DNA of 43,306 nt from Chromera velia (taxonomy: Eukaryota > Sar > Chromeraceae), in the NCBI GenBank assembly GCA_018398765.1, contig JAHBMJ010000521.1:1-43306 (forward strand), in the 5' to 3' direction. Below, in pieces: positions 16,877-43,306 of this stretch. Under the pieces are notes generated by a model. The model had not been told where the DNA came from. It ran no database searches and saw nothing but the letters and a program-made list of their open reading frames with translations. The translations under genes were made by a program, and so were the position numbers. Each line of letters begins with the position of its first letter. Position 1 is the stretch's first letter.

Positions 16877-19800
16877 TTAACAGTTTTCCAATGCGGAGTC
16901 AACGGCTGACAGCATCAATCCCAGCACTGATTTCTCAAAACGGGCAGCAAAATTCCTTCCCAAGCCTCCCGAATCAAATCTGTTCACATGTTCTCTTTCA
17001 CAATTCCTCCCAGCCGACGCTGAACCGTCTTTGGACAGACAACCCTCCTGCTGGTGCACTAAAGACCTTTGACTTTCCGTTTCACAAGTTGTCACACATG
17101 GAGGAGATACAGTCCCGGCACAGCTAGGGGACTTGCGAACCCTTCTCCTCTCGCTTTGACCTTCAAGGGGCCTCTCAGCACTGTCTTCTTTTCCCCTGAA
17201 GAGGCCCAGACTGCTGGGACGGTCTCTTGATTCAATCGAGGAAGACAGACTCCCCTGCACTCTCAGACTGACAGAAGAAGCATCACGAGAGCTGGAACTG
17301 TCAGACTTGCGAGTGGAACCCCCCCCCCTGCCCCCACAACCAGACTGCACCCCCCTCAAACAATGCGACTGCCCCCTCTCCGTCTCCCTCTCCCGACCAC
17401 CGACCATAACAAACTCCCCAGCAGCAGCAGCCCTCAGGTCACCCACCGGGGCCCCTCCATGGAGACCTCCGGAGTCCCCGCCGGTGTTCGCTGACTGTTC
17501 CCTCCTTGGCGGCAAATTTCCAATCGACCTCCCCCCTCTTTCTTCCCTCTCTGTGACGGGCAGAATCTCAGAGGCAAGCTGGTTGGCGTCCCTGTGCGAT
17601 CTTGTTGGAGCAGCAGGAGAGAAGGAGACGGATAGAGCGCCCCCCCGGAGACCTAGAGACCCGACAAGGTCTAAAAGGCCCTGGAGGGCTTCCGTGCGGC
17701 CTCGGAAGGGGTTCGTTTGATTCGGGGGACACTGCACTTTGCTAGAAGGAAGGGTGGAGGACGAATCCTGATCAGCAGACGCACTCGGGGGGGCGTTTCG
17801 TCGCTTGGATGAGGAGCGAGTGGGACGGAGAGAATGCCTCGAAGGTCTTCGGAGCCTTGGGGTGAATCTGGGAGGAGAGGGGGAGGGAGAGGGACTGGCG
17901 GCCTTCCGCTGCGATGTTTGGGGCAGAGGACGGTATCTTGCGGAGGATTTAATGGATGAGTGCCTCGGAACAGAGACCTTCAGAGTGGGTCCCTGTTGGA
18001 CATGTTTGTCTTCGTTTGTCGGTTTTTGAGAGGCGATGGACGGTGTGACGTTGGGAGTCGAAGAATGATTGTGACGTTGTTGCGAAGTGACTCGACTGTC
18101 GGGAGAAAGATTGGGCATCTGCTGTGTTGCTGTGGGAAGCTCAGTGTGGTGAGAGATTGGCTCTGAGGATCTCAGTGAAATTTCATTCGAATGAGATCCT
18201 GGTGGAAGGGCAACAGGGGACTCTGAGGGTGAGGGGGGGTCTGTATGATTGTCAGTCAAACTCAAAAGGAGGTCTCTCTGTGCATTCACAGACGGAAACG
18301 AATGGGAAGAAGTGACACCATGATCTGTCTGAGGTTTCCATTCTTCTTCGTTCTGAAGGACACCCCCCTCAGGCTCTCCCTGCTCTTCTTGCACACCCAT
18401 ACTTTTGACCTGTCTGCCCCGCATCTCCACCCCCTCCCCTGCTGAGACAGTGCTGGGCCCGAGGTCCTGTAAGGGAATGTCGGGGTCCTCTGTCGGACTC
18501 CCCACTCCGATCATCATTGAGGGGGAGGGATCCTCAACTGCTCTATTAATAGCGATGGGGGGGGTGGGAGGGACACAGAGGGGCTTCCGTTGAGGGGTAG
18601 AATGGGACAGGCAGGGAGCAGTGGAGTGAGAGGAGACGGGAACTGGAGGTGGCTCTGCTGTCGGGATATGGGGCAGTTGGGTCTCTGCTGCGGTTTCCGT
18701 TGAAGAAAGAAGAGGGAACACCTTCTTGACCTCTTCTTCAACTTGAAGAGAAGGAGGGAAGGGGGAGACGGAGCCTGAGAAGGGAGGGGACTCGAGTCTT
18801 CTGCTGCTTTTACTAGTCTCAATCTCTTTCTTTTTCTCCCACTCTCCCTCGTCCCTTCTACTTAACAAAAACTCCCGTCCCCCCTCTAGGAACTCCTCCA
18901 AAATCCTATCCTCCTCACTCAAATTCTTCAAAAGAGTTCCGTTCGAAACACCAACTTCAGCTTTGCTTTTCTTGACAAATGCCCTTTCAAAACTCTCCTC
19001 CTCGCCGCCCCCATTTCTCTTATTCTCTTCGGCATCCTGGTTCTCTATATATACTCGATACGCAAGGGGGCGAGCCAGGAAAGACGAAAAGCTTTGTTCC
19101 TCGATCTCTACCCCTCTTCCTGCTGCACCGCCTGATCCCTCTGCAACAATATTTGTTCGACAAGCCTGTCTCATCTCTGCAAAAGAACTCAAGGACACAT
19201 CAGGGGAACGAGAAGAAGAAGAAGAAAGCGCTACGTGGTCTGGAACAGCACGATGATCAGACAAAAGATCACGCCGATTCTCCCACCATGAGCCGGCCTC
19301 TCTCTGCATGGGCTTTCCCTGCACACAACTCGCGGCCGTACCACCGTCTGACTCATTCCCCCCAAGCCAGTCAGACTTCCCAACAAACCGAACCTGGCCT
19401 TTCTTTCCTCTTCCGTCATGCAAAGGGGTACAAAGCTCTGAGGAAGAGAACTTTGAAGTCTTCGCAACTCCCATTCCCATTCTGACATTTCCCCCTTCCC
19501 TACCCTCTGACAGACACAAAGTCTCCTTCCTGGGCGTAAAGGGACTGGCAGTGCCCCTGAGGGACAAACAACACCCCGAGAAATCGTCTGTTAGCGTCTC
19601 TGTCTCCGTTTCTGCGGTGCTCCTTCGACTCACCGGAACGCGCTCATTCTCTTGAAACTCTGCTGTATGATTGACAGCAATATACGCAGCCGTTTGAGTT
19701 AAAAGAGGAGAACCATACCCCGACTCTGCTGCCTCTGAAGGTTTCAAACGATGATGGATAGTCTGAAGAGGCTTTCCATCAGGGCAACTCTCGTGACCAT

Positions 19801-20773
19801 GTACTTCAACCGAATCCTCTGATGGGCCCCTTTCCACATTTCCTGTCCGCACACGAGAAGGGCGGGAGCTCTGGAGGCGGTGCTTCAACTTCTCGGGGAG
19901 CCAGAGGGAGAGGGGCACTGCAATTTCACTCGCAGGCGGCGCGGGGACGGGGGGACAGGGGAGGACGGTCCCGCGATTATCTCTCTCCCCCACCTCGTGG
20001 TTATTCTCAAAGCAACACTCAGAGTCCAGTCTTAAATCCTTCTGTTTGGCTTCACGGGATGCTGCGCTTGCTCGATGTAAAGAATGCTGCGGGACGCAAC
20101 CTCTCATAGTGTTGTGTGACACACCAGCACGAGAGTGTACGCGGGGCACGGGGGGATCGGGGGGAATGGACACACCTTTCCAGCACGGTGCTTTGAAGTA
20201 TGTATTTTGGCGGCCTCTGCCACTCATGGCCTCGGCCAGACTCACTGGAGTCTCCGCATTACTGCGTTTGGGCGGCAGGGAGTCTGAGGAAACAACGGAG
20301 AGAGGTAAGGGAACGGAATTGATTTGAGTGTTTTGGGACTTGGGGCCGAAAGATGGACTGGACAATTGGAATGGAATTGGGTCGCTATTTTCTGCTGCAC
20401 GGAATGCACAGGACCACTCTGCCGAGAAGGAGATGACGCTTTCAGGAGGAGAGCCTTCGCATGACAGGATTTGAACGTCCTCCTCTTCTTTGGATCTGTT
20501 GTCTGTACAGGGGACTGCAGAGACAAGAGGCCAAGCTTTAGATCCCTCCCGCTCCACATGAAAACGCGATTTCTCGGTCTGTCCTTTGGAATTCTCTTCT
20601 CGGGTATGGTGGTGACGGTGGAAGGGGGATCTCTGCAACACATTTCTGTCAGTTGAAGTTTTGCTGTCTCTGTTGTACAACACGTTGGTAGACGGAGCGG
20701 ACAGTCCCATCACGTGCACGTCTTCAGTGCAGGAGGAAATGCAGTAAAGAAGGTTCTGATCAGGCAGCATCAT
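16877..20773 (-). CDS. Large intrinsically disordered protein, 1298 aa, single exon
   Basis: One uninterrupted frame from an ATG in good context (ACCAATGATG) to a stop next to AT-rich DNA. Its length against a random background in this composition makes it clearly coding. The protein is rich in Ser, Pro, Glu and Arg with few hydrophobic blocks. Notable parts are a TETETET run near residue 395, an acidic and hydrophobic helix-like segment at about 650-690 (EEDRILEEFLEGGREFLL), a Pro/Ser-rich central third, an SR/KR-rich segment at about 1000-1050, and a Leu-rich segment near 1085-1105 (LQGLLDLVGSLGL). The extreme C terminus (about the last 40 residues) is predicted to be helical. There is no signal peptide or membrane span. 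I recognise no family; a scaffold or nuclear role is only a guess. Confidence 0.75.
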   Translation of the reverse strand: MMLPDQNLLYCISSCTEDVHVMGLSAPSTNVLYNRDSKTSTDRNVLQRSPFHRHHHTREENSKGQTEKSRFHVEREGSKAWPLVSAVPCTDNRSKEEEDVQILSCEGSPPESVISFSAEWSCAFRAAENSDPIPFQLSSPSFGPKSQNTQINSVPLPLSVVSSDSLPPKRSNAETPVSLAEAMSGRGRQNTYFKAPCWKGVSIPPDPPVPRVHSRAGVSHNTMRGCVPQHSLHRASAASREAKQKDLRLDSECCFENNHEVGERDNRGTVLPCPPVPAPPASEIAVPLSLWLPEKLKHRLQSSRPSRVRTGNVERGPSEDSVEVHGHESCPDGKPLQTIHHRLKPSEAAESGYGSPLLTQTAAYIAVNHTAEFQENERVPVSRRSTAETETETLTDDFSGCCLSLRGTASPFTPRKETLCLSEGREGGNVRMGMGVAKTSKFSSSELCTPLHDGRGKKGQVRFVGKSDWLGGNESDGGTAASCVQGKPMQREAGSWWENRRDLLSDHRAVPDHVALSSSSSRSPDVSLSSFAEMRQACRTNIVAEGSGGAAGRGVEIEEQSFSSFLARPLAYRVYIENQDAEENKRNGGGEEESFERAFVKKSKAEVGVSNGTLLKNLSEEDRILEEFLEGGREFLLSRRDEGEWEKKKEIETSKSSRRLESPPFSGSVSPFPPSLQVEEEVKKVFPLLSSTETAAETQLPHIPTAEPPPVPVSSHSTAPCLSHSTPQRKPLCVPPTPPIAINRAVEDPSPSMMIGVGSPTEDPDIPLQDLGPSTVSAGEGVEMRGRQVKSMGVQEEQGEPEGGVLQNEEEWKPQTDHGVTSSHSFPSVNAQRDLLLSLTDNHTDPPSPSESPVALPPGSHSNEISLRSSEPISHHTELPTATQQMPNLSPDSRVTSQQRHNHSSTPNVTPSIASQKPTNEDKHVQQGPTLKVSVPRHSSIKSSARYRPLPQTSQRKAASPSPSPSPPRFTPRLRRPSRHSLRPTRSSSKRRNAPPSASADQDSSSTLPSSKVQCPPNQTNPFRGRTEALQGLLDLVGSLGLRGGALSVSFSPAAPTRSHRDANQLASEILPVTEREERGGRSIGNLPPRREQSANTGGDSGGLHGGAPVGDLRAAAAGEFVMVGGRERETERGQSHCLRGVQSGCGGRGGGSTRKSDSSSSRDASSVSLRVQGSLSSSIESRDRPSSLGLFRGKEDSAERPLEGQSERRRVRKSPSCAGTVSPPCVTTCETESQRSLVHQQEGCLSKDGSASAGRNCEREHVNRFDSGGLGRNFAARFEKSVLGLMLSAVDSALENC

Positions 20774-21447
20774 TGGTCCTTTTTTGGCGACGTACGCGGA
20801 ATGGAACGAAGCGGACAGCGAGGGTCGCCCGAATGTTGAGTATCTATGTATTAGAGTGAAATTCTGTCAAAGCAACTGTTGCACATGACAGATTGACCTT
20901 GGCCGATCGGCTCTCCAACGTGAGCTGTCCTTATCTTCGATGGCTTTCTGTTGAAGTGCTACATATGTGCAAGCCAGATATATATACATGATTGTTTGTG
21001 ATTGCAGCACGCTCACTGCTCAGCTATATATATATATATAGCTGGATGGAACTTGGCAAGGCCCAGAGCTGCAAACTGACTGCATAACATACAATGATAA
21101 CAGATGCAACAATGCGCGCAAACATGCAATCACTTTGAAACAAACTTGTATCGATTTCATACGTGCATGCAGCGTACGCATGCAACAGTGCATGCAACAG
21201 TGCATGCAACACTATATATATATATATATATATGTAAATACAGCTCGTGCAACACAGTATATATAGATAGATCGAACATTGAATTTAATAATTAAATCGA
21301 ACCTGCACGGATCAAACTATTCATCCTAGCTGCGTGTGTGTAGATCGCGATTCAGATGTCCAGGTCTTTCGCAGCTTGATGTACCAAGGAGAAACAGAGA
21401 ATCTCTGATTTCCCTAGCTGATCCATCAAAGCCGGCGCGGCCATTGC
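20774..21447. other. AT-rich spacer with TA and TGCATGCA repeats
   Basis: Contains TA runs at about 21025-21042 and 21211-21234 and three tandem copies of a 12-bp unit CAACAGTGCATG (about 21181-21211). It separates the 1298-aa minus-strand gene from a weak plus-strand ORF and probably includes the former's promoter. No TATA box is confidently placed because the whole stretch is AT-rich. Confidence 0.4.
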
Positions 21448-25208: not shown

Positions 25209-26491
25209 TTAATTCTGCACCCGCAGCAATCGGTCGATGGCCGCCTGTCTCATCTCATACAGCAGCATGTTGGACTTGCCGATCGCCGACCGCTGCACGA
25301 AAGTCTTGGAGGCGTCTATCGCCGCACCGCAGCCATGCGTCCCCCCCAACTTCCATCGCAGCTGGAGGCCCTCCCCGAGACCCTCCTTCTCCTTCTCCTT
25401 ATTCTCTCCTTCCCCCCACTGCAAAAGGGGAGCTTCCAGGGGCGTTGGGGAAGCGTCCAGCACTTTGTTGTTGTTGTTGTTGTTGTGAGCTGTGCTCTCC
25501 TCACGCAACCGCGGCATCGGGGCCCCTTTCTCGAACAACTCCGGAGACAAGGGAAGCTGCACAGACGCACGCACGCATCCACTCTTTCTTTCTTTTTGGC
25601 AGACGACACACAAACACACACGACTGCACCTACCTCGATCCGGACAGACGACTAAAGCAGAAACAGAGCGGTCTGGTGACTATACTTTCTGTCTAGCCCC
25701 CAGCCCCNNNNNNNNNNNNNNNNNNNNNNNNNNNNNNNNNNNNNNNNNNNNNNNNNNNNNNNNNNNNNNNNNNNNNNNNNNNNNNNNNNNNNNNNNNNNN
25801 NNNNNNTCCCCCCTTGACCGACCGACCATGAATTCCAGACGTCCCGAGGAAGCCGTCCGACTTCGGAAGGCGGTGTCCACCTGTGTCTTCAGACTTTCGT
25901 TCAGACCCTCCCGCAGTCTTCCTATCTGCTCAGGCAGCTGCTTCTCCTTCTCCTTCGGGTGGCTGGTGTTGTTGGTGTAAAGAGGGAGAGACGAGAGCGG
26001 GAGAGTGATTCGAAGAGAAAGGGAAGGGGAGCGGGCGGAGGTCCCCTCGCCGGCTTTCCCCTTTCTCGTCCCCCCTCGGCTCGTCCTTTCCTTTTCCGTC
26101 TGTGCTCCTCCTGATGAAATCAGTTAGGACATTGAAAGAGAAGAGAAGAAGAAATGCAGTCACACAGGCAGGCAGACAGACAGAGAGAAGAAAATGAGAT
26201 AAAAACAAACAAAGCCGCCAATGATGCTCCCTCCCTCCCTGTCTGGTTCCAGTCTCGATCAAGTGAGGCCACAGAAAGACATGAAAATAGAAAGAAAGGA
26301 CATCGAAATCGAGTGCCGTTCGAAAGAAAATTAATTTCGGCAGAAAGGTCCTCGCAGAGGGGATAATCTTTCTCTTTCACCCCACCCACACTTGTCACAA
26401 CCAAGAGCAGCTCGAGAAAGAAAAGAAAGAGGCACACACCGGGAAAAAAAAAAAACAGCATACAAAGAAAGATGAACACATAAATGAAAGA

Positions 26492-26522
<31 letters not shown>

Positions 26523-29500
26523 AAGAAAGAAAGAAAGAAAGAAAGAAGAGAAAGCTGACTGACCTCTTTCCAAGGTGACAGCAAACCCTCCAACTTCTCC
26601 CGTGGGGGCTTTCGGAATCTTCAAGTTCGGCCCCTCACTTCTGCTTCCGTTCTTCCACCAAAATGCTCCCGAACTCCGGGCGCAGATCAGACGGACATCA
26701 TGAACCAGACGCCGCGTCCTCACAGAGAGATTCACGGCCTCCGCAACGAAGGCATCCATGTCCAGACTCCCTTTCCCCTCTCTGTTTGTCTGCATGCGTC
26801 TGAAGAGTTCTCGAGAAGCGAAGTCGAACAGAGGAACCATCCAGGAAAGCTCCCACTCAGCAGCCTCCTGCGGTCCCCCCCCCTCCCTCAGGGGTACTTG
26901 AGGAGGGAGGATGCGGGACTCTAGGACCCGGAAACGTTCCTTCGTGTCCCCCGGACGCTGACAGAGGAGAAGGGCGGGAGCATCAGAGGGCGGGTGGAGC
27001 TTCAGATCCAAATCCTCTAATCTGCATTTCATTCATTCAACAGACAGGGGAGGGAAGAAGGAAGTAAGGGAGGGAAATAATAATATGTGCATGGGTGCAG
27101 AGGCAAGGAAGGAATTAAGGAAAGTGGGAAACGAGAATAGAGGGAAGAGGAAAAATGGAAAGGGAAGGCAGCAAGGCAGTCGACAAAAGTCGTTTTTCGA
27201 ATATGCACCGCAGGTCTTCCTGGTCACAGACTTGCAAAGAAAGCAGTCGACCCCATGCAGAGCAAAGAAGGCAGCAGACAAGTGAATCAATTCAAAGAAC
27301 GAATGCACGAGCAGGCAATGAGGCGACAAAGACAACGTACTGTTGTGAAATTGAAGATGCGAAAAAAGAAAGAATGAGCAAAAACAAGAAAAGGAAAGAA
27401 AATGGGGCAAAGAATCCATCAGCCTGTTTCCAAATCCCCCCTTTAATTCTCTCCTCTCTGACCTGACAAGCAAGGAGAAGGCCAAGGTTGCCGAATTTTC
27501 GAGATAGAGGAGTGTCCCCTCGGGTTTTGCCACTTCGAACTCCACTCTGTAGTCGAGCGAGTTCTCCATGTTCAGCGAACTCTGAACGATGCCGAACCGT
27601 CTCCGAACCTCCACCCGTCTCCTCTGTGCCGCCGCTGCCTGCTCCTCCCGCTCGCGTTCGAGTCTCTCTGCAACTGCACGCGTTCGTGCCTCCTCTTCTT
27701 CTCGAAGCAGCTGCAGCAAGCAAAGTGTACAGTCAGTTTGGAAGGAAGAAAATCGACAGGACACGAGAAAGGACCAACGTTCAAAAGATGCCAACAAGAA
27801 GAAGCAAGCTTGCTCTGCCTCACAAACCACCTGGGGCGGCAAAGAGAAGAAGAGGGAGGCGGAATTCATTCTTCTTCGGTCTGTCATCACTCTCTGTTCT
27901 GTTCTGTCTTGAGTGAATCCAGTCAGGAAGGAAAGAGACGAAAAGACAAACCAAACAGCATGAGAAAACAAGAAAGACAGACAGGAAGGAAAAAAAGAGC
28001 GAAAAGGTCCCAAAAGTCCAGCTGATGTCCCTTCACTTCTTGTTCTGACCTGTTCATACACCGCTTCTGCTCTCTTCACTTTCTCCTTTTCCGCCCCAAG
28101 ATCCACAAGCAATTTCGTCTCCTCCTCCAGAAGCTCCCCAGCTTCCTCCCTGCAGACGTAACAGCGCGAAATCGTGTCAAGAAGAAAAGAGAAGGAAGGA
28201 AAGAGGCAGGAGAGCTGATCGGAGAGATCATGCACAGCTAGCCCCGGCAGAAAGAAAAAGCTGAGTCGAAAGAAAATTAATGCACCACAGTTAATCAATG
28301 TCACGCGACACGGCGGAGAACGAGCACGCAGTCCCTCCCACCTTTCAAAAAAAAAAAAAGAGAGCCGCCCCAGAGAGACTCCACCCAGAACCGCATACAG
28401 ACAGAGAGAAGGTCAGACAGACAAACAAGCAAACAAAGAACGGACGGACCGGAATTTGTCCAGAATGACTGCGTGTTTTTCTGCTGAGGTCTGCACAAAG
28501 AAGAAAGAGGTCGGAATGTATCCCCCCCGAGGAAGATATTAATAAATAAGAGAATCTTCAAATGAATCGATCAGGCACCAAGTGGGCGAAGAAGGAAGGG
28601 AAAAAAGAATGCATGAAGGCATCCACACGCATCCGCTACAACCGTCACTGACAGCAAAAAAAAAAAGAACTGGAGCTTGCAGCAGCCCAGAACAGAAGCA
28701 AGCTTGGCTCATTGAACAAACACTTCAGGATTCCACCAAAACCTTGAGCAAACACATAGCCTGTGAAGACACACCCACTTGTTGCCACACAAACATTCAG
28801 ACTGCACCCCTACATCCACTCTCACAGACGGACAGAAAAAAAGAGAACCAGTCACCGTAGCCCACGTGCAAAAGAAAACACACACAGTGAGACCTCGAGA
28901 AGAGAAAAGAAATGCAGAGACACACGGAGAACCACAGAGGAAGAAGAAACGCACCCAATCACCCCATGTTCATGCCCAAGCAAGAAGACAAACAGAAAAG
29001 GAAGCTCACGAACCAACCAGCACGGCAAGTGCACGTCCGCCCAGTACTTTCAGGAGACTGCGTCTGCGTTTGTCGAGTTCCCTCAGGAGTTCTCCCGTTG
29101 CGGCCTTTCTTGCCTCGTTGAGCACTGGGACCAGTTTCTTGCATTCAGTCTGGAAGGCCACTTGCGACTCCCTGATGGCCTCTCGGTCGTGCGACTGAAA
29201 TGGCAACGGGAATGGGAAGGGAAAAGCAAGTGGGGGAAATGTAAGTTATAAATGGGTTGATCCTTGAAGTTTCTGCCCTTAATTCTCTTTCTCTGTCTGT
29301 CTCTCTGCATGTGACGTGATCGATCCACGATGACCATACATACATACGCAAACAAATGACACGAGGACAAAACGACACGACACGACTGAACGAAACAAGG
29401 AAGGTAGGAAGGAAGAACAGGGGGTGGAACTCCCAATTTTGAAGGGATTCAAGCGCAGGGAAGAAGAGTAAGAAAGGAGCAGAAAGGAAGGAAGGAAGGA

Positions 29501-29639
29501 AGAAAGAAAGAAAGAACACGACTAATGTATCATCCTTTCCCTTCCTCAACTTCCCATTCTTTTCGGTTCCTTCGCCTTCCCTGTCTCTCACTTCCCCTCA
29601 ATTCCTTTGCCTTCCCTATCTCTCACACCTGAACGACAT

Positions 29640-29671
<32 letters not shown>

Positions 29672-32600
29672 ATCTGTTTTTCTTTTTTTCTGCTTATTTT
29701 TCTTTCACACACATAAACAGACCGACAGACCGACACACAGACAGACTGACTGACTGGGATCTTCTCCCCCTCTGCGACCACTCTCCTCATTTCATTCAGG
29801 TGGGGAAGGTGGAGAAACCGCAGGGCCTTTCTCTCTGCAATCACTTTCTCCAGGACCTCTGTATCCGCCTTCCATTTCCTCTCCTGAGCGTCTCTTGCCG
29901 CCGTTAACGCAGCGCAAACGGGGCCGAGCACAACGTGATCAGCAGACTCGCCAGCGCCCTGCACAAGCTCGACCGCCTGGTTGGAGGCCAGACGTCTGAG
30001 TGCGGGACGGAAGAGGCTGTTCATGTCGTTCTCGACGTGTCTGGCCATGTGCTTCTCTGCACTGAATCTTTCGCACAGCCACACGAGATCGTTCACTCCC
30101 CCTGCTGTCTCCTCAGGCTCTTCCTCTGCCTCCTCTGCCGGTGGTTGGCCTGGGACTTGTTGGCCTGTTGGGTCCTCAATTTGACGCTCCTCCTCCCCTT
30201 TCCTTTCACCTGCTGCTGCCTGCTTCTCTTCAAAGACATGATTTCTTTTCGGCACCCCCTCATCGTTTTCGTCGTCCTCCCCCTCTTCGTCATCCTCATC
30301 TCCGCTGTCGTCTGGAGGGGCGTTCTCCCTCACCCTTCGCTTGCAGTCTTTCTTCGACCTCTCCTGAAGGACCCTCCTCCCTGTTCTGCTTTCTACTGCT
30401 GTCTTTTCTGCCTCCTCAGACTGCTGCTGTTCTAAGGACTCTCTCTGGTCCTCTCTGATTGCCTCCTCAACAGCATCTGAGGCCCCCCCACGCGCAGACG
30501 GAAGAGGCACTTTGGCCTTTTCGTTTTTCGTCTTCTCCTGCTGCTGCTGCGGCGGCGGCGGCGGCGGGGGGGGATGCACGTTGGCGGGGAAGAGAGCGGT
30601 GTCTAGAGAGTGCACAGCAACTTCGTCCTCAGAGACAGAGGGAAAGAGCACATCCTCTGCCTCCCCATGATCCGAAGCTGTCGGCTGCTGGTGAACGTGA
30701 GGAGGGTGCAAGTTGTCAGTTGAACCTTCCTTCTCTCCCCCCTTCTCTTCCTTCCCCTCTCCCGCCCGCTCCCCCGGGATTGCAATCAGCCTGGAGAGAC
30801 TCGGCAGACTCTTCGTGAAATCCTCCGAAGAGAGGCAAGCCGCTTCCCTGTGTCCCTCTCTCTGAAGCACCCCCCCTGCAGCTGCAGGCTGAGACGGAGC
30901 CGCGGCAGCAGGAGAATGTCTCTGGGCTCTCGTGACGTCTGCTTGCTTTCGGGGCCGTCTCTTGACGGTTTCGTTCTCCTCCAACTTGTCTTCCGCTCTG
31001 TCGGAAGCTTCCGAGCCCCTTTGCCTGCAGAGAGAGAGAGAGAAAACACAGAGAGAGAGAGAGACAGAGGTTCACACAGATGGGCAACCTCCTTGCATTT
31101 CCTCTCCTCTCTGCCCTCCAACTCCTTCTCATTGACAGACGGACAGACGGAGGGGCAGACAGGGAAACCCAATCACGCGCACAAAGACAGGCAGGCAGCA
31201 AGAGGAAGCACGCAAGAAGACATGAGAAGAGAGGAGAAGACAAGAGAAGAGAGGAGAGGAGAGGACAGCGAAAAACGTGACCATCACGATGCAGTGTGAG
31301 TAGAAAGAGAGGTAGGGGGGCGACTCATCTGTCTCACACGAATCTCGGGAGGGAGCCTCTCTTTATCGATCTGTGCATGGAGGGAGAAAAACAGAATGAA
31401 GGACACGAAATGAATTAAGGCGAATGAATGAATATTCAGACGAAGGAAGGGCGGACAGACAAGCAAGAATTGCGAAAGGGCACACACGGAATGAAGACAA
31501 CAAAAAAGCAGGCAGGCAGACCTGAGTGCATTCAGTCTGCTCGAACGTCGAGGCCCTTCCCCACCACTCCCCCTTCCTCCCTCTCGAGACGGACGAGGGG
31601 AGGGAACCTGAGGAGACGACAACACTGCTGCTGCTGCTGCTGCTTTGGGCTGCGGCTGACGACGTGGGTCCGCATCTCTTCCTTTCCCTCCACTCGCGTC
31701 TGCCCTGCTTGCTCGTCGCTTTCCAGGGACCGAGTCTTGAGACGCAGAGGAATTCTCCCTGTTCGCCCCATGCGGAGACGGTGGAAGGGCAGAGCCGTGA
31801 GGAGATTTCTGGGCCCCCTTTCTGCCGGCAGTTCTCCGATCACCGTCTTTGGAAGGAGAGGGGGGTTTGTCCTTCGACGTCCTCTTCTTCTCCTTCTCTG
31901 ACGGTTTCCTTCTGTTTTCTTCGTTGCTTGCTTGGACAGAGAGGGAGTCAGGAAGAATAGCCGAGAGGGCGGGCGGGTTTCGTGTGGGTTGCTCAGGGGA
32001 AAAGGCGTCGGGATTGTGGCGGTTCTTCGGATTTGGAGATTCCGGGTCTGTGGGAGCACGGCGAAGAGGATCAGAGACAGGGAGAGACACACCGCTGTGA
32101 GAGGTCTCTTTACGAGCCGACCTGCTCCCTTCCTCTTTCTCCTGCTCTTGCTCCTTCAAAACAGACAGACGAGGAGAGGTCCTCCGGCCAGCCGGGTTTC
32201 GGCTGGGGCGCTCGTTTGCGTCTTTCTTCTCACGTGAGAGGGAAACGGAGAGGGGTGGAGGGGGCACCATGGACGACTCTGCCCTCTCATCATCCACTCT
32301 CTCCCCCTGCGTGAGGGTGCGTTGTTGAGCCATCTGTGCAGCTTGTGGGGCAACTGCAGCAGCGGCAGCAGTGGAGGGCGCCCCGAATGAGAAAACCTCT
32401 CTTGTTCCTCCCTCAGGGCCAAAGGAAGGCGGACGGACCTCTTTGTCTCCTTCCCCCCACAGTACTCCTGCTGAGGACGCAGAAGCAGAAGAAGAGGCAG
32501 GAGCCCCCTTCGAATTACGCGCCCCCCTTCCTCTCAGTCGCTCGGAGCTGCGGACTGATCGCCTACCTCCCCGTCCCCGTCCTGTCGGCACCCCCCCGGC

Positions 32601-35600
32601 AGTCGACCCCCTTGCTGTCTCCTGAGTCCCCCGCTGCATATCTTCACCCTCCCCCCCTGTCTGGTCTCCAGGAGAGGGTGCTGGGGTCGACTGAGGAGGC
32701 GAGAGAGGGGGAGGGAAGATCGTGTCTGCGTACTCGTTCAGTTGCCTCATCGCTTCAGAGACAGAGCTCGAGGGGGCCTCTGAGGGAGCCGCATGGGCGG
32801 CGTCGGGGGATGCGAAACCTGGCTGCTCCTGCGTCTGCACGCCCTGTTGCTGCTGCTGCTGCTGTGTCTGGCCGCTATCGTCAACGTCCACCATTTCGAC
32901 ATCATGCAGGGATGAGCAGGCACGGGACCCTGCAGACTGACGAGAGAGACGAGGAGACTGTGGTTGCGTCAGGGGCTGTCCCCCGAACATGTTCATGTTC
33001 GTGTGGGGGACAGTTGGGACGTTTCCAGCAAGCTGAGACTGCAGCTGCGGGTCGGGATGATGGGATCGGAATCCGATGACGGATGCGGGGGGGGGCTGGG
33101 CAGCTGAGGAGCTTGCAGACGCTGAGGAGGAATATGCAGGGTGCACTGTGGTCCCCTGCGCTCCCGGTCGGGAGCCACGGCGTGCTTTCTTCTTCGTCTG
33201 CACCAGGTCAGGAGAGACGGAGTCGCGACGACCGAAGACAGTCGCGTACGTTTGAGGGGGAACAGCCGAGTCGGCCCTCGCAGGAGAGGAGCCCCGCTGG
33301 CGCTTGCAGGTGACTCGTCCTCCTGCACCCGCTTGCTTACTGGGTGCAGGAGTCTGGAAGGGCTGTCTTCTCGTCCTTCGCGTCCACTGCCCCCCTCTCG
33401 ATGTTCTCAGGCCTCCGCCCAAACCGGACAAGGGACCAGTGCCGGTATCGGACGCCCCCCCTTCGGTGAAGGGGAAAGGGGTGTGTTGGTGGACAGGGGG
33501 GGTGGGGACTCCATTGAAACTCCCTGCAGCATTGGAAGAGAACACCTGTGTCTCTTCGTACATTCTGGACAGGCGAGCTTTTGCATCCAGAGTCGGTTCA
33601 CCTGAGAGAAACTGTTCGTCTTCTAGGAGGCCGAATTGAGGGGAGACGCCAGACCCCACAAGAATCCGGTCGACCGTCTGTGTGGCCGTCAGCGTTCCCT
33701 GCAGGCATGTATGTGCACATACATATGCATGGGGGGATGATCAAAGGGAGGGAAGGCCTTCTTTTCTTTTCTTTCATGTTCCTGCCACTTTTCGTTCTGC
33801 GTGATGGCCCACGAAAGAGGTGTCAGCTAGGGTTTTCATGCATCATTCTTGCGCAGATCGAAGGAAGGGAAATCGAGAGAGACCAGAAAGAACAATGGAG
33901 GCACCCAGAAAGAACAATCGAGAGAGATTCAGCAGGGTGAAAAGAAAAAAAACAGAAACGGGCCACACACATAGAAAGAGAGAGAGGCGCATGCGGATTG
34001 AACATTTTAGATGAACGCACAGAAGACTGAGAGATGGGACAGCGAAACCCTTTTCTCCTTCCCTTTCTCGATGAGAAAGAAAGAAAGAAAGAAAGAACAA
34101 AAGAAAGAAACAAAGAAAGAAAGAAAGAAACAAAGAAAGAACGGACCTCGCTCCTCTCCTCCGTGGTCGTCACGTCTCTGTTGCTGCCCATCTCTCTCTG
34201 CACATCCCCCCTGCTCGACGAGGAGGAAGAGGAGGATGACGAGGAGCCTCCATCTACTCCAGTGCCCGACACACCCTCAGTCAAATCCTTCTGCTGCTGC
34301 TGCTGAGACGGGGAGGGACTCCAGGGAAAGGACATCTGAGGCCACATTCCCCTTATCGCCCCCCTCCCGCCTGCCCTCTCCTCACCCTCACGATCGGACC
34401 CCTGCCCTCCTGCGGCAGCAGCTGCTGGCGGCCGTGGGGATTCGGCATTCGCGCTCGGCGACCGCCGATGCCGCGAAGGGGAACGCTTGGCGCACGACCC
34501 CAGGGTTTCGGAAACCAGACGCACCAGGCCGGAGCCGCTGCTACTGGAGGACGAGGACGAGGACGAGGAGGAAGAGCACGCGGGGGGAACTCTGCTGGCC
34601 GAAGGGGATCCCTTCCTAGTGTGCCCCCCCCTTCCTAGAAACGTTCTTCCCCTCCCTCCCTCCGGACTCCGTCTGCCGGCGGACCCCCACTCCCCCTCAC
34701 CCCCCTCTGTCTCTCTGCCGATTAGAGGATGGGAGACAGAGAGGGAGGCGTCAGAATCAGCGTCTCCGAAGGGGCTCTGAGGGACCACGGACGGGCGACG
34801 ACGCGCGGGCGGTCCTCCCATTTCGTCTCCCTGCAGACACGCAGGCAGGCAGCAGACAATTAAAGAGAAAGGGAGAGAGCAATCAAGAGAAGGAAAGGAG
34901 AAGAGGAGGGCAGGCAGGCAGGAAGGAAGGAACAAAGGCGTGTCCGTCTCTGTTTGTCACTCAGAGAGCGACGGAAGGAAGGAAGGAAGGAAGGAAGGAA
35001 GGAAGCAAGGACGGAGGGAAGGAAGGAAGGAAGGAAGGAACGAAGGAAGATTCGTTCCTAAATGAGGGACAGCTTTAAGGCTTGGAGGGAGAAAAATTTA
35101 AAGTCAGAGAGAGAGAACCTCAGCGGAGGGCTCTGACAAAACTCTGCCCCCCCCCCGGCCTCTCCCAGAGCCTTACACAGACTTTCTTTCTTGCTTGCTT
35201 GCATGCGGGCTTTGGAGAGGAGAAGATGACGGGCTGATGGATGGATGGATGGATGAATGGTCGGAAAGTAAAAGGGAAGGAAGAATCAGGATGGCAATTA
35301 AAGACAGAAGACGAAAGAAAGCATTCACAGAGACTCGATCGAGCACTGACGATTTCCTCACAGAAGACGCCAACAAGGTCATCGCACACGGGGTTCACTG
35401 CGCGCAGATAGAGACAGACAGACATATACGGCAGGCAGGCAGGTACACACACACACACACACAATCACAGCAGTGAAGGGAAGGGGAAAAGAGGCTCGCT
35501 CAGGAGAGTCGGTGGAGACGCCCCACGAAATACAATGCAGCACGACCGGATGATGTCATGCATGTCTATGTTTTCAAAACTGTCGGAAAGGAAAGGAAAG

Positions 35601-36902
35601 GGGGGAACAACGAACGGGGGGAAAAGGGAGGAAAGGGGGTTGGAAAGGAAGGTGATAGACCCCACCTAATGAGGCTCTCTCCCTCTCCCCATGCAGTTTT
35701 TCTTTCGTTCCTTTTGATTCTCTCTGTCTCTCTGTCTGCTGCAAGTCTGCCTGCCGAGCTCCTCTTCATACACCTGGCACACACTGTCTATTCCATCTGA
35801 GTGGTTGTTGTCTATCAATGAAAGTCGTTTCCACTTTGCTCTCGATCTCTCCCTGACTGCATGTGGGCCGACTGACGCACGCGCGTTCTGTTGTGCCCAC
35901 GGCATCCTCTGACGTTGCTGTGGCGGAGGGGCGGCAGCAGCGGCTCCTCCGAGGTTTTTGTCTCTCGAGAGATGGCTGCAGCAACAAGAAGAAAGGGGAA
36001 CACAGGACAAATTAAAGGGAAGGTGACCGTTGGACAGTGCAGCAGCAGACTCCGGCATGCACCATGAGGGGAAGAGGCGGAATCCTGCGTTGCCTTTTCA
36101 CTGCCGGGATTGCAGTGGCATCTCTGCTCGGAGGGAACGAATTCGGGTCTGAAGAGTGTTTTCGCGACAGAACCTTCAAAAAACGCAGTGCTCAGTGCTT
36201 CAAAAAAGGCAGTCAGTGGTTTGATGAGAGAAAAGAGAGACGTGCCGGAAACATCTGTGCGGGGTTCCCAGGTGTCTGCCAGCGCGTCTGTCTCAGTTCT
36301 CTCTGTCTCTTTTCTTTTCACCCAGCTTTTCTTCCCGGCTTCGGCTGCTTACCTGCGTGCATCCCGATTGTTGTTATTCTCCAGGGACACCGCCCTCCTC
36401 CGTGCAGACCCGACTGTGTAAGACGGGTAATCCCTGCAACGAGGCAGGCAGGCAGGCAGAAAGGGAAGGGAAACAGCCACGGGGAGGGACAGAGGGAGAA
36501 GTCAAGTCTCCAAAAAGCGGGCTGGTTCTGAAAACTGAAGACCGAAATCATCACGGACTATGATAAAAGGGGGCCCATCACAGAGTGTCATGCTGCTACA
36601 AATCGGCAAGACGACTGGGCAAAAAGCAGAGAAAAGAAACAGACGAGCGAGGAGGTAACAGTGATTCCCAGGTTCAGACTGAGCTCATTTACTTACTTGT
36701 TGAACAAAGCGACCTCCGTCAACTGCTCTTCATGCTTCCATCCGATACTCCTCCTGGGAGTGGGGGCCCTATTCGGCGACTTCATTGCAGATCGCCTGGG
36801 CGGAGGCGTCTGCGAAGACGGCCTTAGCCTTGGCGGAGGGCTTTGGAAGCTATCCGCACTTCCGGCCGAATTTCGCTTCTCGGGCTGCTTTGTTGGTGGC
36901 AT
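25209..36902 (-). CDS. KNL1: Putative kinetochore scaffold KNL1/Spc105/Spc7 (12 exons)
   Basis: Exons in transcript order: 36902-36697, 35975-35774, 34830-34147, 33698-31522, 31370-31338, 31024-29755, 29194-29010, 28149-28050, 27710-27463, 27021-26564, 26110-25827, 25556-25209. All phases match, giving 6195 nt and 2064 aa, unless an exon is hidden in the sequence gap in the last intron. KNL1 is the outer-kinetochore platform that recruits PP1 and checkpoint proteins and joins the Mis12 complex. Seen here: a SILK-like SAMK at residues 38-41; an RVxF-like RSIGW at 51-55 followed by LTEVALF; about 1,000 disordered residues with poly-Ser, poly-Gln and RRSSRL-type basic motifs; an acidic block near 1330-1380; coiled coil about 1400-1655; then a strand-rich region (from FGIVQSS, 1658), an LFDF helix and a VRTRRLVHDVRLI helix (1802-1814). 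A second strand-rich unit ends near 1990, as in double-RWD KNL1 tails. No canonical MELT repeat is visible; MYEET at 410-414 is at best degenerate. The gene model is strong; the family call rests on pattern alone. Confidence 0.75.
25462..25486 (-). repeat. (AAC)n run in the last KNL1-like exon
   Basis: Seven to eight AAC codons encode a poly-Asn run in the final exon. The trinucleotide unit keeps the frame open. Confidence 0.85.
25708..25806. other. Assembly gap (99 N)
   Basis: A run of 99 N within the last intron of the KNL1-like gene. The last coding base before it is 25827 and the next exon starts at 25556, both at phase 0. The model is in frame without extra sequence, but a small exon could be missing and the true gap length is unknown. 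Confidence 0.99.
26491..26552. repeat. (GACA)n-(GAAA)n microsatellite in an intron
   Basis: About seven GACA units pass directly into GAAA units, just inside the donor of the KNL1-like gene's exon 10. Confidence 0.95.
31338..31370 (-). other. 33-base symmetric microexon of the KNL1-like gene
   Basis: Flanked by CATGCACAG| on the acceptor side and |GTGAGA on the donor side. Entry and exit are both phase 2, and the neighbouring exons also end and start at phase 2. Inclusion adds 11 residues (SIKRGSLPRFV-like), while skipping still leaves an open frame. It therefore has the geometry of a cassette exon. Confidence 0.55.
34070..34142. repeat. (GAAA)n-rich intron repeat
   Basis: AAAG/AAAC tetramers immediately precede (in plus coordinates) the donor of exon 3 of the KNL1-like gene. 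Confidence 0.9.
34974..35048. repeat. (GGAA)n microsatellite in intron 2
   Basis: Two blocks of GGAA units (about seven and six) are separated by a short imperfect spacer, inside intron 2 of the KNL1-like gene. Confidence 0.95.
36064..36563 (+). CDS. Possible nested secreted Cys-rich small protein, 128 aa (2 exons)
   Basis: Lies wholly inside intron 1 of the KNL1-like gene (35976-36696) on the opposite strand. The ATG has good context (CACCATGAGG). Exon 1 is 36064-36271 and exon 2 is 36385-36563; the donor is CCCAG|GTGTCT and the acceptor TATTCTCCAG|G, joined at phase 1 across a 113-base intron. Residues 1-28 form a plausible signal peptide (basic start, ILRCLFTAGIAVASLLGG core). The mature part has five cysteines in a Lys/Arg-rich chain (EECF, QCF, ICAG, LCK, PCN), followed by a hydrophilic tail. 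It could be a true nested gene or a chance open frame in GC-rich intron DNA. No family is recognised. Confidence 0.4.
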
Positions 36903-37970
36903 AGCGAGGCTGAAGAAGACGCGCTGTCGGGCAACGAGTGGTCTTTCTGAGCTGAGTCTGCACTAAAGGGGCCAGGAAGAAGCCGAACGAGTCCACGAGC
37001 TCGCTTGGCAATCCTCCAACTGCGCTCTCCTGAAGTTTCAGCAGCTGTCGCAAGTACGCCTTGTAGGTCTCCAAAGAAGACGGGCGCCTGATTGTTCTTC
37101 TTTTTTTTGTACAGATACTTCGCAAAGAGCTGCCGTTTCTGTCAAGACTTTCGATCAGGTCCTCACTCACTGACTTTCTGGTGGGGGTCACAATGGGTCA
37201 CAAGATGTGGAAAGATTCTGCATGAGGGAAAATGATCGATTGTTGATGATTGTTGCTCTGCAAAAAAAAAGTCTGTGCGCGGATCGATCCAACTTTTTTT
37301 TCGATCCCGCGTGGCCGCGAGACGGGCGCGCGGGCGGCGCGGGTCCGCGGCATGCATGCATGGGCCTGTATTCGCGGACGCGCGCGGGCCGCGCGGGTCC
37401 GGCCACCCCAATTATGCAGGGTGCATGGCGGCGCCGCGCGGCTCGAATGAATGCACAGACGGCGCCGCCATACGGCGCCGCCTATCATGCCATGATCATA
37501 TGCAAGAGTGAAATTGCTTCGTGAGGCGGGACATCAGGTTTTCATGATGCCGCACCTCGATCTGACATCAGATTGTCCATTCTTTCGTCGTCTAAGCGTA
37601 CACGACAGCCCTCCGTGTGGGATCGACTGGTCTCTCATCCATTGGAATCGGGTCGGCTGTCCACTGCGGAGACGCCAAAAATCTTGTGGCACTGGACACT
37701 GTGCAAAGTGCCAATCACACCATCCTCGCACCATTTCAGGGAAGACTTGACTTAAATTGCCTTTCCTATCCCTCTCCTGAAATCGTATGTGAAATTTTAA
37801 GGGGGTCTGGACCGCTAAGCTGTCGCAAGACTGAATTGAATCACTTTTCGGTCCTCCGGTGTATCCGGCTCCGATCGGACGTCGTGGGTCTTTCGGGTGC
37901 CAGTGCTCCCTTTCATCCACTCCTCAGTTTGATTGTGTGAATCACTGCAACATTCCCCTCGTGAGGCAAG
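36903..37970. promoter_or_regulatory. Bidirectional promoter region between KNL1-like and golgin-like genes
   Basis: A 1068-base spacer between two start codons that point away from each other, so both 5' UTRs and promoters must lie here. It contains a very GC-rich island (about 37305-37495) with a GCGCGGGTCCG word twice, three GGCGCCGC words, and an intact GCATGCATGCATG. Several frames are open across it, but none has an ATG start plus splice signals that hold together. Confidence 0.5.
37305..37495. repeat. GC-rich palindromic island
   Basis: About 190 bases at very high GC. Repeats of GCGCGGGTCCG (about 37336 and 37395) and GGCGCCGC (three times between 37430 and 37483) fold back on themselves. 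A GCATGCATGCATG word lies between them. It sits in the divergent promoter region, so CpG-island-like or regulatory function is an inference. Confidence 0.6.
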
Positions 37971-38392: not shown

Positions 38393-41300
38393 CGTGTGCG
38401 CGTGTGTGTGTATGCATGCGTGCGTGCGTGTGTTGGGTGGAGAAAGCAGTCGGGTCTCTCGATCATGAGTCTTCCTCCCCTTCTGCTGTTTGCCTCTCTA
38501 GTTAGTTCCCTTGTGCTCTCCCGTTTCTCCACCGATCTTCTATGTGCGCCCTTCTGCATCTGCACCTTAATTTCCCAATGATCCTTCTTATCTTTGCAGA
38601 AGGAGGACAAAGACGGTACCACGCACAGACTCCCGAGAGGGCCACGGCGCGTCCTTCCCGACCTGTCGAGGAGGACGAGGAGGACCAGAGCCAGGGGGGG
38701 GTGTCTGCTTTCTCGGCCGCCATTCCCGGAAGACTGAAGGGATTGATGCCCAAGCTCCTTGAACCCAAAAAAGGCACCACAGAGACGCACGATAGCCAAC
38801 CGTCCCACCCCCCTCCTGCAGATACAACCGAGGACGAGCCTGAGGATGACGTCACTGTTTCGCATCCTTCCTGGAGTCTCCAAAGGATTTTGCCTGTAGT
38901 GAAGAACCAAATTAGCAGGGCGCAGGGGGCAGCACAGGGGGCAGTCAGGGCAGGGAGAGACGCCCTGGAGGGAGCACTGCACATGGCTGAGGCTGACGAA
39001 GACGAAGAAGATGAGGCGGAGAAAGAAGAACAAGAGGCCCCCCCTTTGAAACAAGATGGGCCGACTGCCGTCCCACAAGTCGTCCACGTCCCAGCTGAAC
39101 CTCCGAGATCAGGCGATAGTCACAGTACACAGCCTCCCGCCGCATCCAACCCCAACCCTCACGAAGGTTTAGGCTTAGGCATAGGGTCCGCCTGGGGCGT
39201 TGAGGAAGCAGAGACGGAAATGCTCGCCCCGTCTCCGCAGAAGCAAGAAGGAGGTCCCGGAGGAGGACGACAGAGCTTTCTTCCCTTAACCACTGCCCCC
39301 CCTCCCCCCCCACCACGATCGTCCTCACATGCCTCTAATGATGCCGTCTCCCCTCCTTCGGCTGTTGTCAGTGACACTCCCGGGCCGCCTCTTGTTCATC
39401 CCGTCTCCTCCTCTCCCTTCTCCGCCCCGTCTCCGTCTCCGTTCCCATCAGCAGTCCGAGCTACTCCCCCGTCTGCAGAGACGGAAAAACGAAGGGAAAC
39501 CCCTCCCCCGTCTCCGTCTCCAGCGTTGTTCGGAGAATCGAGTGACGACAGCGGCGGTTGGAACGTGAACATCCGGGAGGAGCTGGAGGAGACGGCACGA
39601 GGGGGGAGCGTGTCTTCTTTTCCTCTCCAGGAAGCCGGCTTGGGGGCAAATGTAGGTGTGGGTAGAGACACGAGCTCGCTTGCTTATACTCTCACTGCCA
39701 CACATACGGATGCAGAAAGAGGAGTGTCACAGTCTGATTGGGCCCCAGCCAACATAGGCGCCCCTTCAGGTTCAGAGATCGTTACAGAATCTTCCGTCAC
39801 TCTCTTCTCCGCAACGGAAGCAGAACGAGACGGGAGGGGTGACGGAGGTAACGGTCGAGACTTTTCTCAATCGACAGGGAACAGTCCCTTCTCCTTCCAA
39901 CCCAAAAGTTCTTCCCCTGCAGTCCCCCAAGTCTCCGTCTCTCTCTCTTCCCCATCACAGGAGCATGTCGGGGACGGATCTAGCGAGACGGCAGGCACTG
40001 CCCGAGAGGCCAGTGGGGGGTCTCTCCAAGTCCAACAACCTGCTCATGCACGTCCCCCACAGCAGCACCAGAGTCCCCTCAGTTCCCCCTTTGCTGGTGG
40101 CACGAACAGTCTGACAGATCCTTCAGGGGCCGAGCAAGTCTCGCGAGAGAATACAGAGGGAGACGACGAGATCCCGTCTCCGTCTCCGTCTCCTGCGCTG
40201 GCAGGTGGAGGAGAGGCAGAGGCGGCAGCAGAGGGATCAGCTATCCGCACTAGTGAATTCCAACCCCCCCAAGCAATGGCAGCCACGGTGATTCATCACC
40301 CGCCCCATGCCCCAACACAAGAGAGTCATCAAGACGGAGTGCCCTCTTCGTCTGCAACTGCCTTGGGGGCACCTAGCCCGATGTCTGGCGAAATAAGTGA
40401 AGGTGGTGCAGTGCCGCCCCGCCCTCCTGAAGGGAAGAATTCCTCTGCAGCCACCGTTGATGATTTCTTTGGAGAGGGTGAGGAAGATGAGTGGGGTGTG
40501 TCTTTGGGTGCACCCTCTTCGTCTTCGGCCGTTGCGCCTCTTCCTGCTACAGCTTCAGAGAGAGCTGGCTCCTTAGAGTCCCCTCAGGAGAATGCCGCCC
40601 TGGGGGGTGCAGGTGAGATGCGAGGGAATGCAGAGGTAGGGGAGGCAGATGGAGGTTCAGAGCTGCTCTCGATTTCAGGGGCAGATCCTGTGAGTCATCA
40701 GGAAGGGGAGGGAAACGGATTTCTTTTCCATGGCGGTGACAGAGGAGGAGGTCCGACGGGTGCCTCTCCCCAACAGCACGCGCCCTCTGATTCCTCTGTG
40801 CCCCCCTCCCTTTCCCCAGATTCCCTTCCACCCAGACCCTCCGCTCCCCTCCCCTCCCCTGATCCTGATGGCGTCTCCGACCAGCAGAGACACAGAGACG
40901 GGATCTGGACAACGGACCCCGGCCCCGTTCCGTTCTCTCAGCCGAGGGGTGGGATGCATCAATCAGCAGAGACTGACAGAGAAGGAGAAGGAGAGGGGGG
41001 AGAAGAAGACGGGGGCCTTTCGGGACCTGAAGCACCGGGGGGGGGTAGGTCGATGAGACTAGAATCTACGGTCACGGGGTTGCCCCACCGTTGGGGTTCT
41101 GTGAGTGCTAGTGACAAGGGGGGGAGGCCGAGTGACCCACAGGCCCCATGGCAGCAGCCCGACGTTCCGGAAACACAACAACTTGCGGGGGTAGGAGGGG
41201 GAGGGGAGGACTACCCTCCAACGCCTTTGAATAATGAATGGAGTGACATGGGGGGACCGTGGGCATCGGGGGGGGGCAGCGGGTCCGCCCATGCGGCTGG

Positions 41301-43306
41301 AGGGCCCGACAGAGGGGCCCACACCCCCTTAGACGCCGATGGGCGACGGCCCTCTACGTCAGACCCTCAAGCATCGGAGCCGGGGCCCCGGGGGGTTCTT
41401 GAAAGTGCCCCGGCACTAGAGAGAGACGCCCTTCTATGGGGGGGGGACGGAGGGGACAGTTCTGGGTCCGGGGGGATGGGCCCGGGGCCGGGATCCGGGC
41501 CCGCGGCGTCGTCTGTCAGGATGCATCGAAACTTGGGGGGGGACAGGAGGGGCATTTGGGGTCAATCGGCTTTCGGTTCTCCCTCTAATGTTCCCGGAGG
41601 GGGTATGGGAGATCTCTCGGGACTCTCTGATGATCCCCAAGCTGTGGTTGCACACACAGGAGGATCGTGTACCTACAATGGAGATGTGTCACCTCCACCT
41701 GGTCAGGCTGAGCAATCAGCAGCAGGAGACCCAGACCTTCATGGAGGAGGAGGGAGTGCCCAGCCCTCTTCTTCTTCTTCCTCTCCCAATAGATGGGCTG
41801 CAGGGAACGTGCAGCAGACAAGCATAGAGACCGAGGGGGGGGGCGGGGGGTTCCTTGCTCACACAGATGGGGACGGAGGAGGGGGTGCATCGCCCACGCA
41901 TGAACCAAGTGCTCCATTCGCAGGTGGCACAGCAGGGGAGTTTCTACGCCCTCGGTCCCCGGATGTGCGGAGTAATCGCAGTGAAGATCGAAGTGAGAGG
42001 GACAGGGGGGAGGCGGAGAGTGTGGGCCCTGACTTGGGCCCCCAACCCGTCGCCCCACGCCCTGCGCTTTCCGCCGCCGCCTCCTCCAGATTAGAGACGT
42101 CACCAGCGAGGCGGGGGGAAGAAGGGCATCTAGATCCAGGTCAGACACCCATGACTTCCACGGTAGAAGCGAACAGAGAAGTCGAAACGCCCCCCCCCGA
42201 TCCTTCGCCGTCTCCCGCTGCACCTGGGAGTGAGGCATTCGGGCTGACCGAGACACACTCTCCTCGGGGTGTCGGTGCTGCCATCCGATCTCCCAGATTG
42301 GCCCCTGCGCCCCATGCAGATTCGCCGAGTGAGTCTGAACCTTCGCCTTCCTCCGTTCCAGCGCCCCCCACCCAGAGGGTCCCGGAAAGCAGAATTCCGG
42401 ATTCGTCTCTTGTCCAGAGAGAGGGGGCGGACTCAGCAGGTGAATTGCAGTCTGCCCTTGCACGTATTCGTGAGCTGGAAGCAAGGCAGTTGGAGGATCA
42501 GGCTTTGTTGGATGGGTTGCGGTCTTCTGCAGGGAGTGCAACTGAGGAGAGGGAGCAGAGGTTGAGGGCAGAAAGGGAAAGTGAGAACTTGAGAGAAGAA
42601 CTGGGAGCAGTGAGGAAGGAAGCCGAAGAGACGCAGGCGAGGGTCAGTCCTGCTGTCCGTACTTTTGTAGCTGCGTATTGTTGTACAGTGAGTTCACCGA
42701 CTTAACTTTTTCCACAACAAATTGGACCGACCTCTTTCCTCCTCACAATGTGCCCTCCCACTGAATCCTCTCTCTCTTTTCCTTTTTTGCCGCGGCCGTC
42801 TTTTACACTTTCGTTCCGATGTGTATACATGAGTTTCGTGTTTGTCCTGTTCATTGTTTGACTGTGAGATTCCCCCCAATTTTGCGGGAGGGAAACGGTT
42901 GGTGCATAGTTTATGTGCCTCTTCTCCATCGATGGTTTCCCTCCCCCTTTCCCCGGTTCATTGTATTTGCCTCTGCATCCAGTGGGAAGGGGGGCATGGA
43001 GGAACTTGACTGGGTGCTTTTGTTCTTTCGGTTGGTTGTCTGCCTCTGTATGTGTGTGTGCAAGTAACAGATATGTCCCATTGGTCTGTCTGTCCCCTTT
43101 CGGTGTGTGCAGTATCTCTCTCAGCTGCAGAGTTTGCGGTCTGAGAAGGACTCCTTGGAGAGTCAAAAGAGACAAGCAGAGAAGGACGCAGAAGGATGGA
43201 AAGATGTCTCCACGGTCTCAGAGTCGGAGCTTGCCTTGATAAAGAAGGACCTGGAGAGGGAGAAGGCGAAACTTCAGGAACTCTACGCGGAGCTCAACAG
43301 CACCAT
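37971..43306 (+). CDS. Golgin-like coiled-coil protein with long disordered middle, 3' truncated by window
   Basis: Exon 1 is 37971-38046 (25 codons plus one base), exon 2 is 38600-42642, and exon 3 starts at 43113 and runs off the window. Donors are GACG|GTCAGG and AGG|GTCAGT; acceptors are TTTGCAG and GTGCAG; all phases agree. At least 1437 codons are present. Residues 1-21 form a short amphipathic segment (MMGFLGNAMSNLNKMLDEADG), then acid. A related segment recurs near residues 145-175 (DALEGALHMAEADEDEED), preceded by an amphipathic stretch (FSAAIPGRLKGLMPKLLEP). Residues about 180-1300 are disordered and rich in Ser/Pro/Gly with SPSPSP runs and acidic DDFFGEGEEDEWG-type patches. A heptad coiled coil starts near 1306 and continues to the window edge. 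This order (membrane-adsorbing N terminus, disorder, long coiled coil) fits golgin/TMF-type tethers, but it is only a layout match. Confidence 0.75.
38105..38424. repeat. Long (GT)n/(TG)n microsatellite in intron 1
   Basis: More than 250 bases of GT/TG-type repeats with GAGT and GGGT interruptions, inside intron 1 (38047-38599) of the golgin-like gene. It produces Val-Cys and His-Thr frames that are not genes. Alternating purine-pyrimidine GT tracts of this length can adopt Z-DNA, which is known of such repeats and not shown here. Confidence 0.95.

Follow-up and report, generated by a model that had tools for sequence, protein, structure and literature searches.

KNL1 (Spc105, Spc7) has been described as a disordered region followed by a coiled coil and then tandem RWD domains (PMC9252888), and Aurora B phosphorylates both of its docking motifs, repressing the binding of PP1 (PMC6406801). 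In Apicomplexa, for which loss of the Mis12 complex is reported, AKiT1-6 have been placed at the position of the Mis12 and KNL1 complexes (PMC9252888). AKiT1 has been called an inner kinetochore protein (PMC10199041), and the Plasmodium protein has been written AKiT1-KNL1 (PMC10499817). The word KNL1 is absent from the accessible portions of PMC12222016, PMC12946202, PMC10199041, PMC11237077, and PMC11148040, and the words Chromera, alveolate, and apicomplexan are absent from the accessible main text of a 2017 survey of kinetochore genes in 90 eukaryotes (PMC5579357).

A gene in the window (the whole stretch of DNA that was analysed, 43,306 nucleotides) encodes a protein that resembles KNL1/Spc105/Spc7 in two respects: an N-terminal RVxF-type motif accompanied by an Aurora-type site, and a long disordered-type arm followed by a helical stretch and by strands and helices, an order compatible with KNL1. 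Unlike these proteins, the candidate has no detectable similarity to human KNL1, a degenerate SILK motif, and an arm lacking a MELT-type motif, and the tandem RWD domains are represented only by putative units. AKiT1, likened here by description only, is likewise an alveolate protein and would be the expected orthologue of the candidate if AKiT1 is KNL1.

We read the splice sites of this gene from the window DNA and obtained 13 exons on the minus strand, from 36902 to 25209, encoding 2043 residues. The earlier note had joined 12 exons into 2064 codons, a count that was nearly right for the same gene, and its limits stand: the start ATG lies at 36902, the first ATG downstream of an in-frame stop, and the stop at 25209. 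All 12 introns begin with GT and end with AG, their sizes range from 263 to 943 bases, and 10 of the 12 acceptors end in GCAG. Splice sites were picked by eye and retained only if the frame held; that phases agree across the 12 junctions is thus weak, non-independent evidence. The T content, which is an independent check on the division into exons and introns, was 0.140–0.219 in the 13 exons and 0.241–0.414 in the 12 introns, ranges that do not overlap. The joined exons, all on the same strand and of similar composition, contain one in-frame stop, at the end. An alternative donor for exon 11 four bases earlier breaks the frame, and no convincing extra exon between exons 11 and 12 was seen by eye among the 25 best-scored candidates. 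The junction of exons 11 and 12 and the last intron, which precedes exon 13 and contains 99 N, are the least certain parts of the gene model, and because of these 99 N the protein is least certain at the very end of its tail. Sequence signals support the gene well. It is also apparently single-copy: a search of the organism's own genome with the tail matched only its own exons at E ≤ 1, and a search with the N-terminus returned itself and five others, none better than E 0.9.

Upstream of the gene, a GC-rich stretch at window positions 37320–37490 (minus strand) contains GGCGGCGCCGT twice in close succession. The window also holds an open frame of 1329 residues at 16877–20866 (minus strand), Ser- and Pro-rich by eye, and one of 1399 residues at 38506–42705 (plus strand), of low complexity and with a charged end; neither has a Pfam match at E ≤ 1.

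Exon 1 (36697..36902; this and all following exons on the minus strand) encodes residues 1–68, with SAMK at residues 38–41 and RSIGW at residues 51–55, the serine of the latter lying within the Aurora-like site RRSI. Both had been proposed as PP1-docking motifs within the first 55 residues. Their positions were confirmed, and a pattern scan showed that RSIGW fits the RVxF consensus, [K/R]x(0-1)[V/I]x[F/W] (PMC6406801), but SAMK is SILK-like under a relaxed pattern only, and the strict SILK pattern, [GS]IL[KR], has no match anywhere in the 2043-residue protein. RVxF matches were not rare for a protein of such composition (2 observed, 0.98 expected from shuffles). When the whole protein was shuffled 5000 times, an RVxF match fell within the first 60 residues in a fraction of 0.0278 of the shuffles, and the two motifs occurred there in order in 0.0004; when the N-terminal 69 residues alone were shuffled 20000 times, the two occurred in order in 0.0003. 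Both the 60-residue limit and the relaxed form of the SILK pattern were chosen with the sequence already in view. Aurora-like sites of the form [RK].[ST][ILV] numbered 10, compared to 6.0 expected (P 0.07, 2000 shuffles), and a variant pattern with R only, plus RR, gave 12 sites compared to 4.7 expected (P 0.0035, 2000 shuffles); this excess is a weak signal. Exon 2 (36353..36433) is marked by splice signals, and exon 3 (35774..35975) has an unusual donor, gtgtatgaag. Pfam searches at E ≤ 1 found no match for the N-terminal 207 residues or for a piece of exon 5.

Between residue 61 and roughly residue 1430, 60-residue blocks contain 3–23% ILVFWYMC, a disordered-type composition. The very long disordered middle of the earlier note appears here as ~1,370 residues of low hydrophobicity. 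This arm includes exon 4 (34147..34830), which is low-complexity and Ser-rich; exon 5 (31522..33698), the longest exon, with a low-hydrophobicity, disordered-type composition; and part of exon 6 (29755..31024), which is disordered-type at first and then opens the tail with a more hydrophobic, charged part. No match to the MELT-type pattern [MILV][DE][LIVMFAE][ST] was found in the arm, the matches in the whole protein being LDAS at 1961 and IDAS at 2008, both in the tail. A looser pattern matched LSVS/VSLS at three places in the arm, none MELT-like, and no class pattern of 6–8 residues with at least four classes occurs there three times. Plant KNL1, to which the candidate is likened by description only, also lacks a conserved MELT motif (PMC12526889); the absence of MELT therefore does not exclude KNL1.

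Beyond the arm, exon 7 (29018..29194) is charged and helix-like in composition, exon 8 (28450..28490) has 41 bases, and exon 9 (28050..28149) is highly charged and helix-like. Exon 10 (27463..27710) and exon 11 (26560..27021) are followed by exon 12 (25827..25962), which looks helix-like by eye, and by exon 13 with the stop (25209..25556). Pfam searches to E ≤ 10, in which HMMER filters drop most weak matches, found no match to Spc7 (PF08317), Knl1_RWD_C (PF18210), or an RWD family, whether the query was the 619-residue tail, exon 10, or exon 11; a match to one of the first two would point to KNL1 membership without defining it. As a control, human KNL1 matched PF18210 at E 7.9e-29; PF08317 had no positive control, and it matched nothing in the organism's own genome or in any control genome. 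NCBIfam, which covers bacterial and archaeal families, returned nothing for the tail, and a sequence search of the PDB found no solved relative of it. Pfam also matched PP1_bind to 16 residues of the tail (E 0.014; 16 bits, below the cut-off of 27); these include RVEF, which sits in a modelled strand, and we regard the match as chance.

Direct alignment of the tail with human KNL1 gave scores at the level of shuffled sequences (P 0.46–0.94 over six settings, with three matrices and local and global alignment), as did alignment of the exon 11 part (P 0.55–0.88 over three settings). Among 509 pieces of the window, the exon 11 part ranked 234, 234, and 330 against human KNL1, at some disadvantage as a 101-residue part ranked with pieces of up to 160 residues. 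The helix that had been singled out as the most KNL1-like piece, with LVHDVRLI, does align in register with VVHHCRLL of human KNL1 as the best local match with BLOSUM45, but this is the best match of a non-significant comparison.

When exon 10 was folded alone from its single sequence, the model contained a helix at residues 2–29 and strands at 36–47, 51–61, and 67–77 (exon numbering), with a pLDDT of 71 for the best of five models, 50–65 for the other four, and a pTM of 0.30. This model would suit a coiled coil that leads into an RWD domain, and exon 10 is a candidate for the start of the first RWD unit; the observations that bear on the putative coiled coil are the composition of the stretch and the 28-residue helix of this model. 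Exon 11, the candidate end of the first RWD unit and start of the second, was modelled poorly (pLDDT 40), and the putative second unit showed two strands only. Fold searches were unspecific. No KNL1 chain appeared among the best 50 of 57 matches, the best 50 of 1030 matches, or the 50 entries listed in a further search, an absence among listed matches that excludes nothing. Of the RWD-like strand and helix pattern proposed for the tail, a helix and three strands were modelled in exon 10, but exon 11 modelled poorly and the fold searches gave nothing specific.

Profile searches of the same genome found two neighbouring Ndc80 matches (E 1.2e-14 and 8.6e-10) and a Mad3/BUB1 N-terminal domain at G000:C365:95944-96273 (L006; E 9.1e-17), which by its sequence is likely a checkpoint gene. 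None of the four families of the Mis12 complex gave a match over the cut-off: Mis12 and Mis14 had no match, MIS13 had none either here or in the control genomes, and Nnf1 had one match below the cut-off (E 0.90). Because these searches run exon by exon and are insensitive, with no true positive among the control genomes, absence of the complex is not implied. The photosystem family PF00124 had no match in this genome. The one match to PF18210, on contig C1467 (16 bits, E 1.11), was rejected as another KNL1, the locus being a long generic coiled coil; 3 of the 14 control genomes likewise gave PF18210 matches below the cut-off.

We considered three other explanations of the locus. A nuclear or spindle protein other than KNL1 that targets PP1 and is specific to the lineage, with an N-terminal PP1 dock and a helical tail serving as some other anchor, would account for the lack of a KNL1 profile or structure match in the tail and for an arm without MELT-type motifs, and RVxF motifs are common among PP1 partners, occurring in nearly 70% of those identified (PMC6406801). 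The strand-bearing exon 10 lies directly after a charged helical stretch, as KNL1 predicts, which argues against such a protein and leaves it, in our estimate, somewhat unlikely. We also know of no other family with the full order of parts seen in the candidate.

The two remaining explanations question the gene model itself. Two adjacent genes, one with the PP1 motif and one with the helical tail, could have been wrongly joined. The model is drawn from sequence signals, the intron between exons 3 and 4 is the longest (943 bases) and opens with the unusual exon 3 donor, and the intron between exons 2 and 3 is the least intron-like in composition (T 0.241, A 0.231). However, the joined exons read through to their single terminal stop and share strand and composition, and we consider such a fusion improbable. 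The frames could also be open by chance, strung together in low-complexity DNA that yields no protein. This reading could draw on the abundance of simple repeats in the region and on the choice of splice sites by hand; the separation of exons from introns by T content, the prevalence of GCAG acceptor ends, and the best single-sequence model of exon 10, although its four companions scored lower, all speak against it, and we judge it highly improbable.

The chances that the gene encodes a divergent alveolate orthologue of the outer-kinetochore scaffold KNL1/Spc105 appear to us evenly balanced. The part order, together with a single incomplete structural model, makes KNL1 the best single explanation, again at about even odds. 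The KNL1 identity given in the earlier note is thus retained in part, as the order of parts fits but no profile, sequence, or specific fold match was found, and the protein has the status of a KNL1 candidate rather than a member, an identity that is plausible but unproven. If the candidate is KNL1, we infer its binding, its location, the fold of its whole tail, and its orthology as follows. The tail, with a coiled coil and two RWD-like units, would anchor the protein at the kinetochore, and the long disordered arm would serve to carry signalling proteins. The phosphatase PP1 would dock on the RVxF-type motif at the tip of the arm, with help from the degenerate SILK-like motif; before chromosomes attach, Aurora would phosphorylate the serines of RRS-A and RRS-I and so keep PP1 off.

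A further and rather doubtful extension is that a KNL1 with its Aurora-gated PP1 dock kept, its MELT arrays lost, and its Mis12 complex undetectable is intermediate, in a free-living relative of Apicomplexa, between canonical KNL1 and the AKiT1 of the parasites. The value of such a link is limited because apicomplexan AKiT1 has already been named KNL1 (PMC10499817). KNL1 helps to set when phosphatase and checkpoint proteins act at the contacts between chromosomes and the spindle. A readable KNL1 from a relative of Apicomplexa could connect canonical KNL1 with the divergent AKiT1, and the candidate could show which of the signalling parts predate parasitism.
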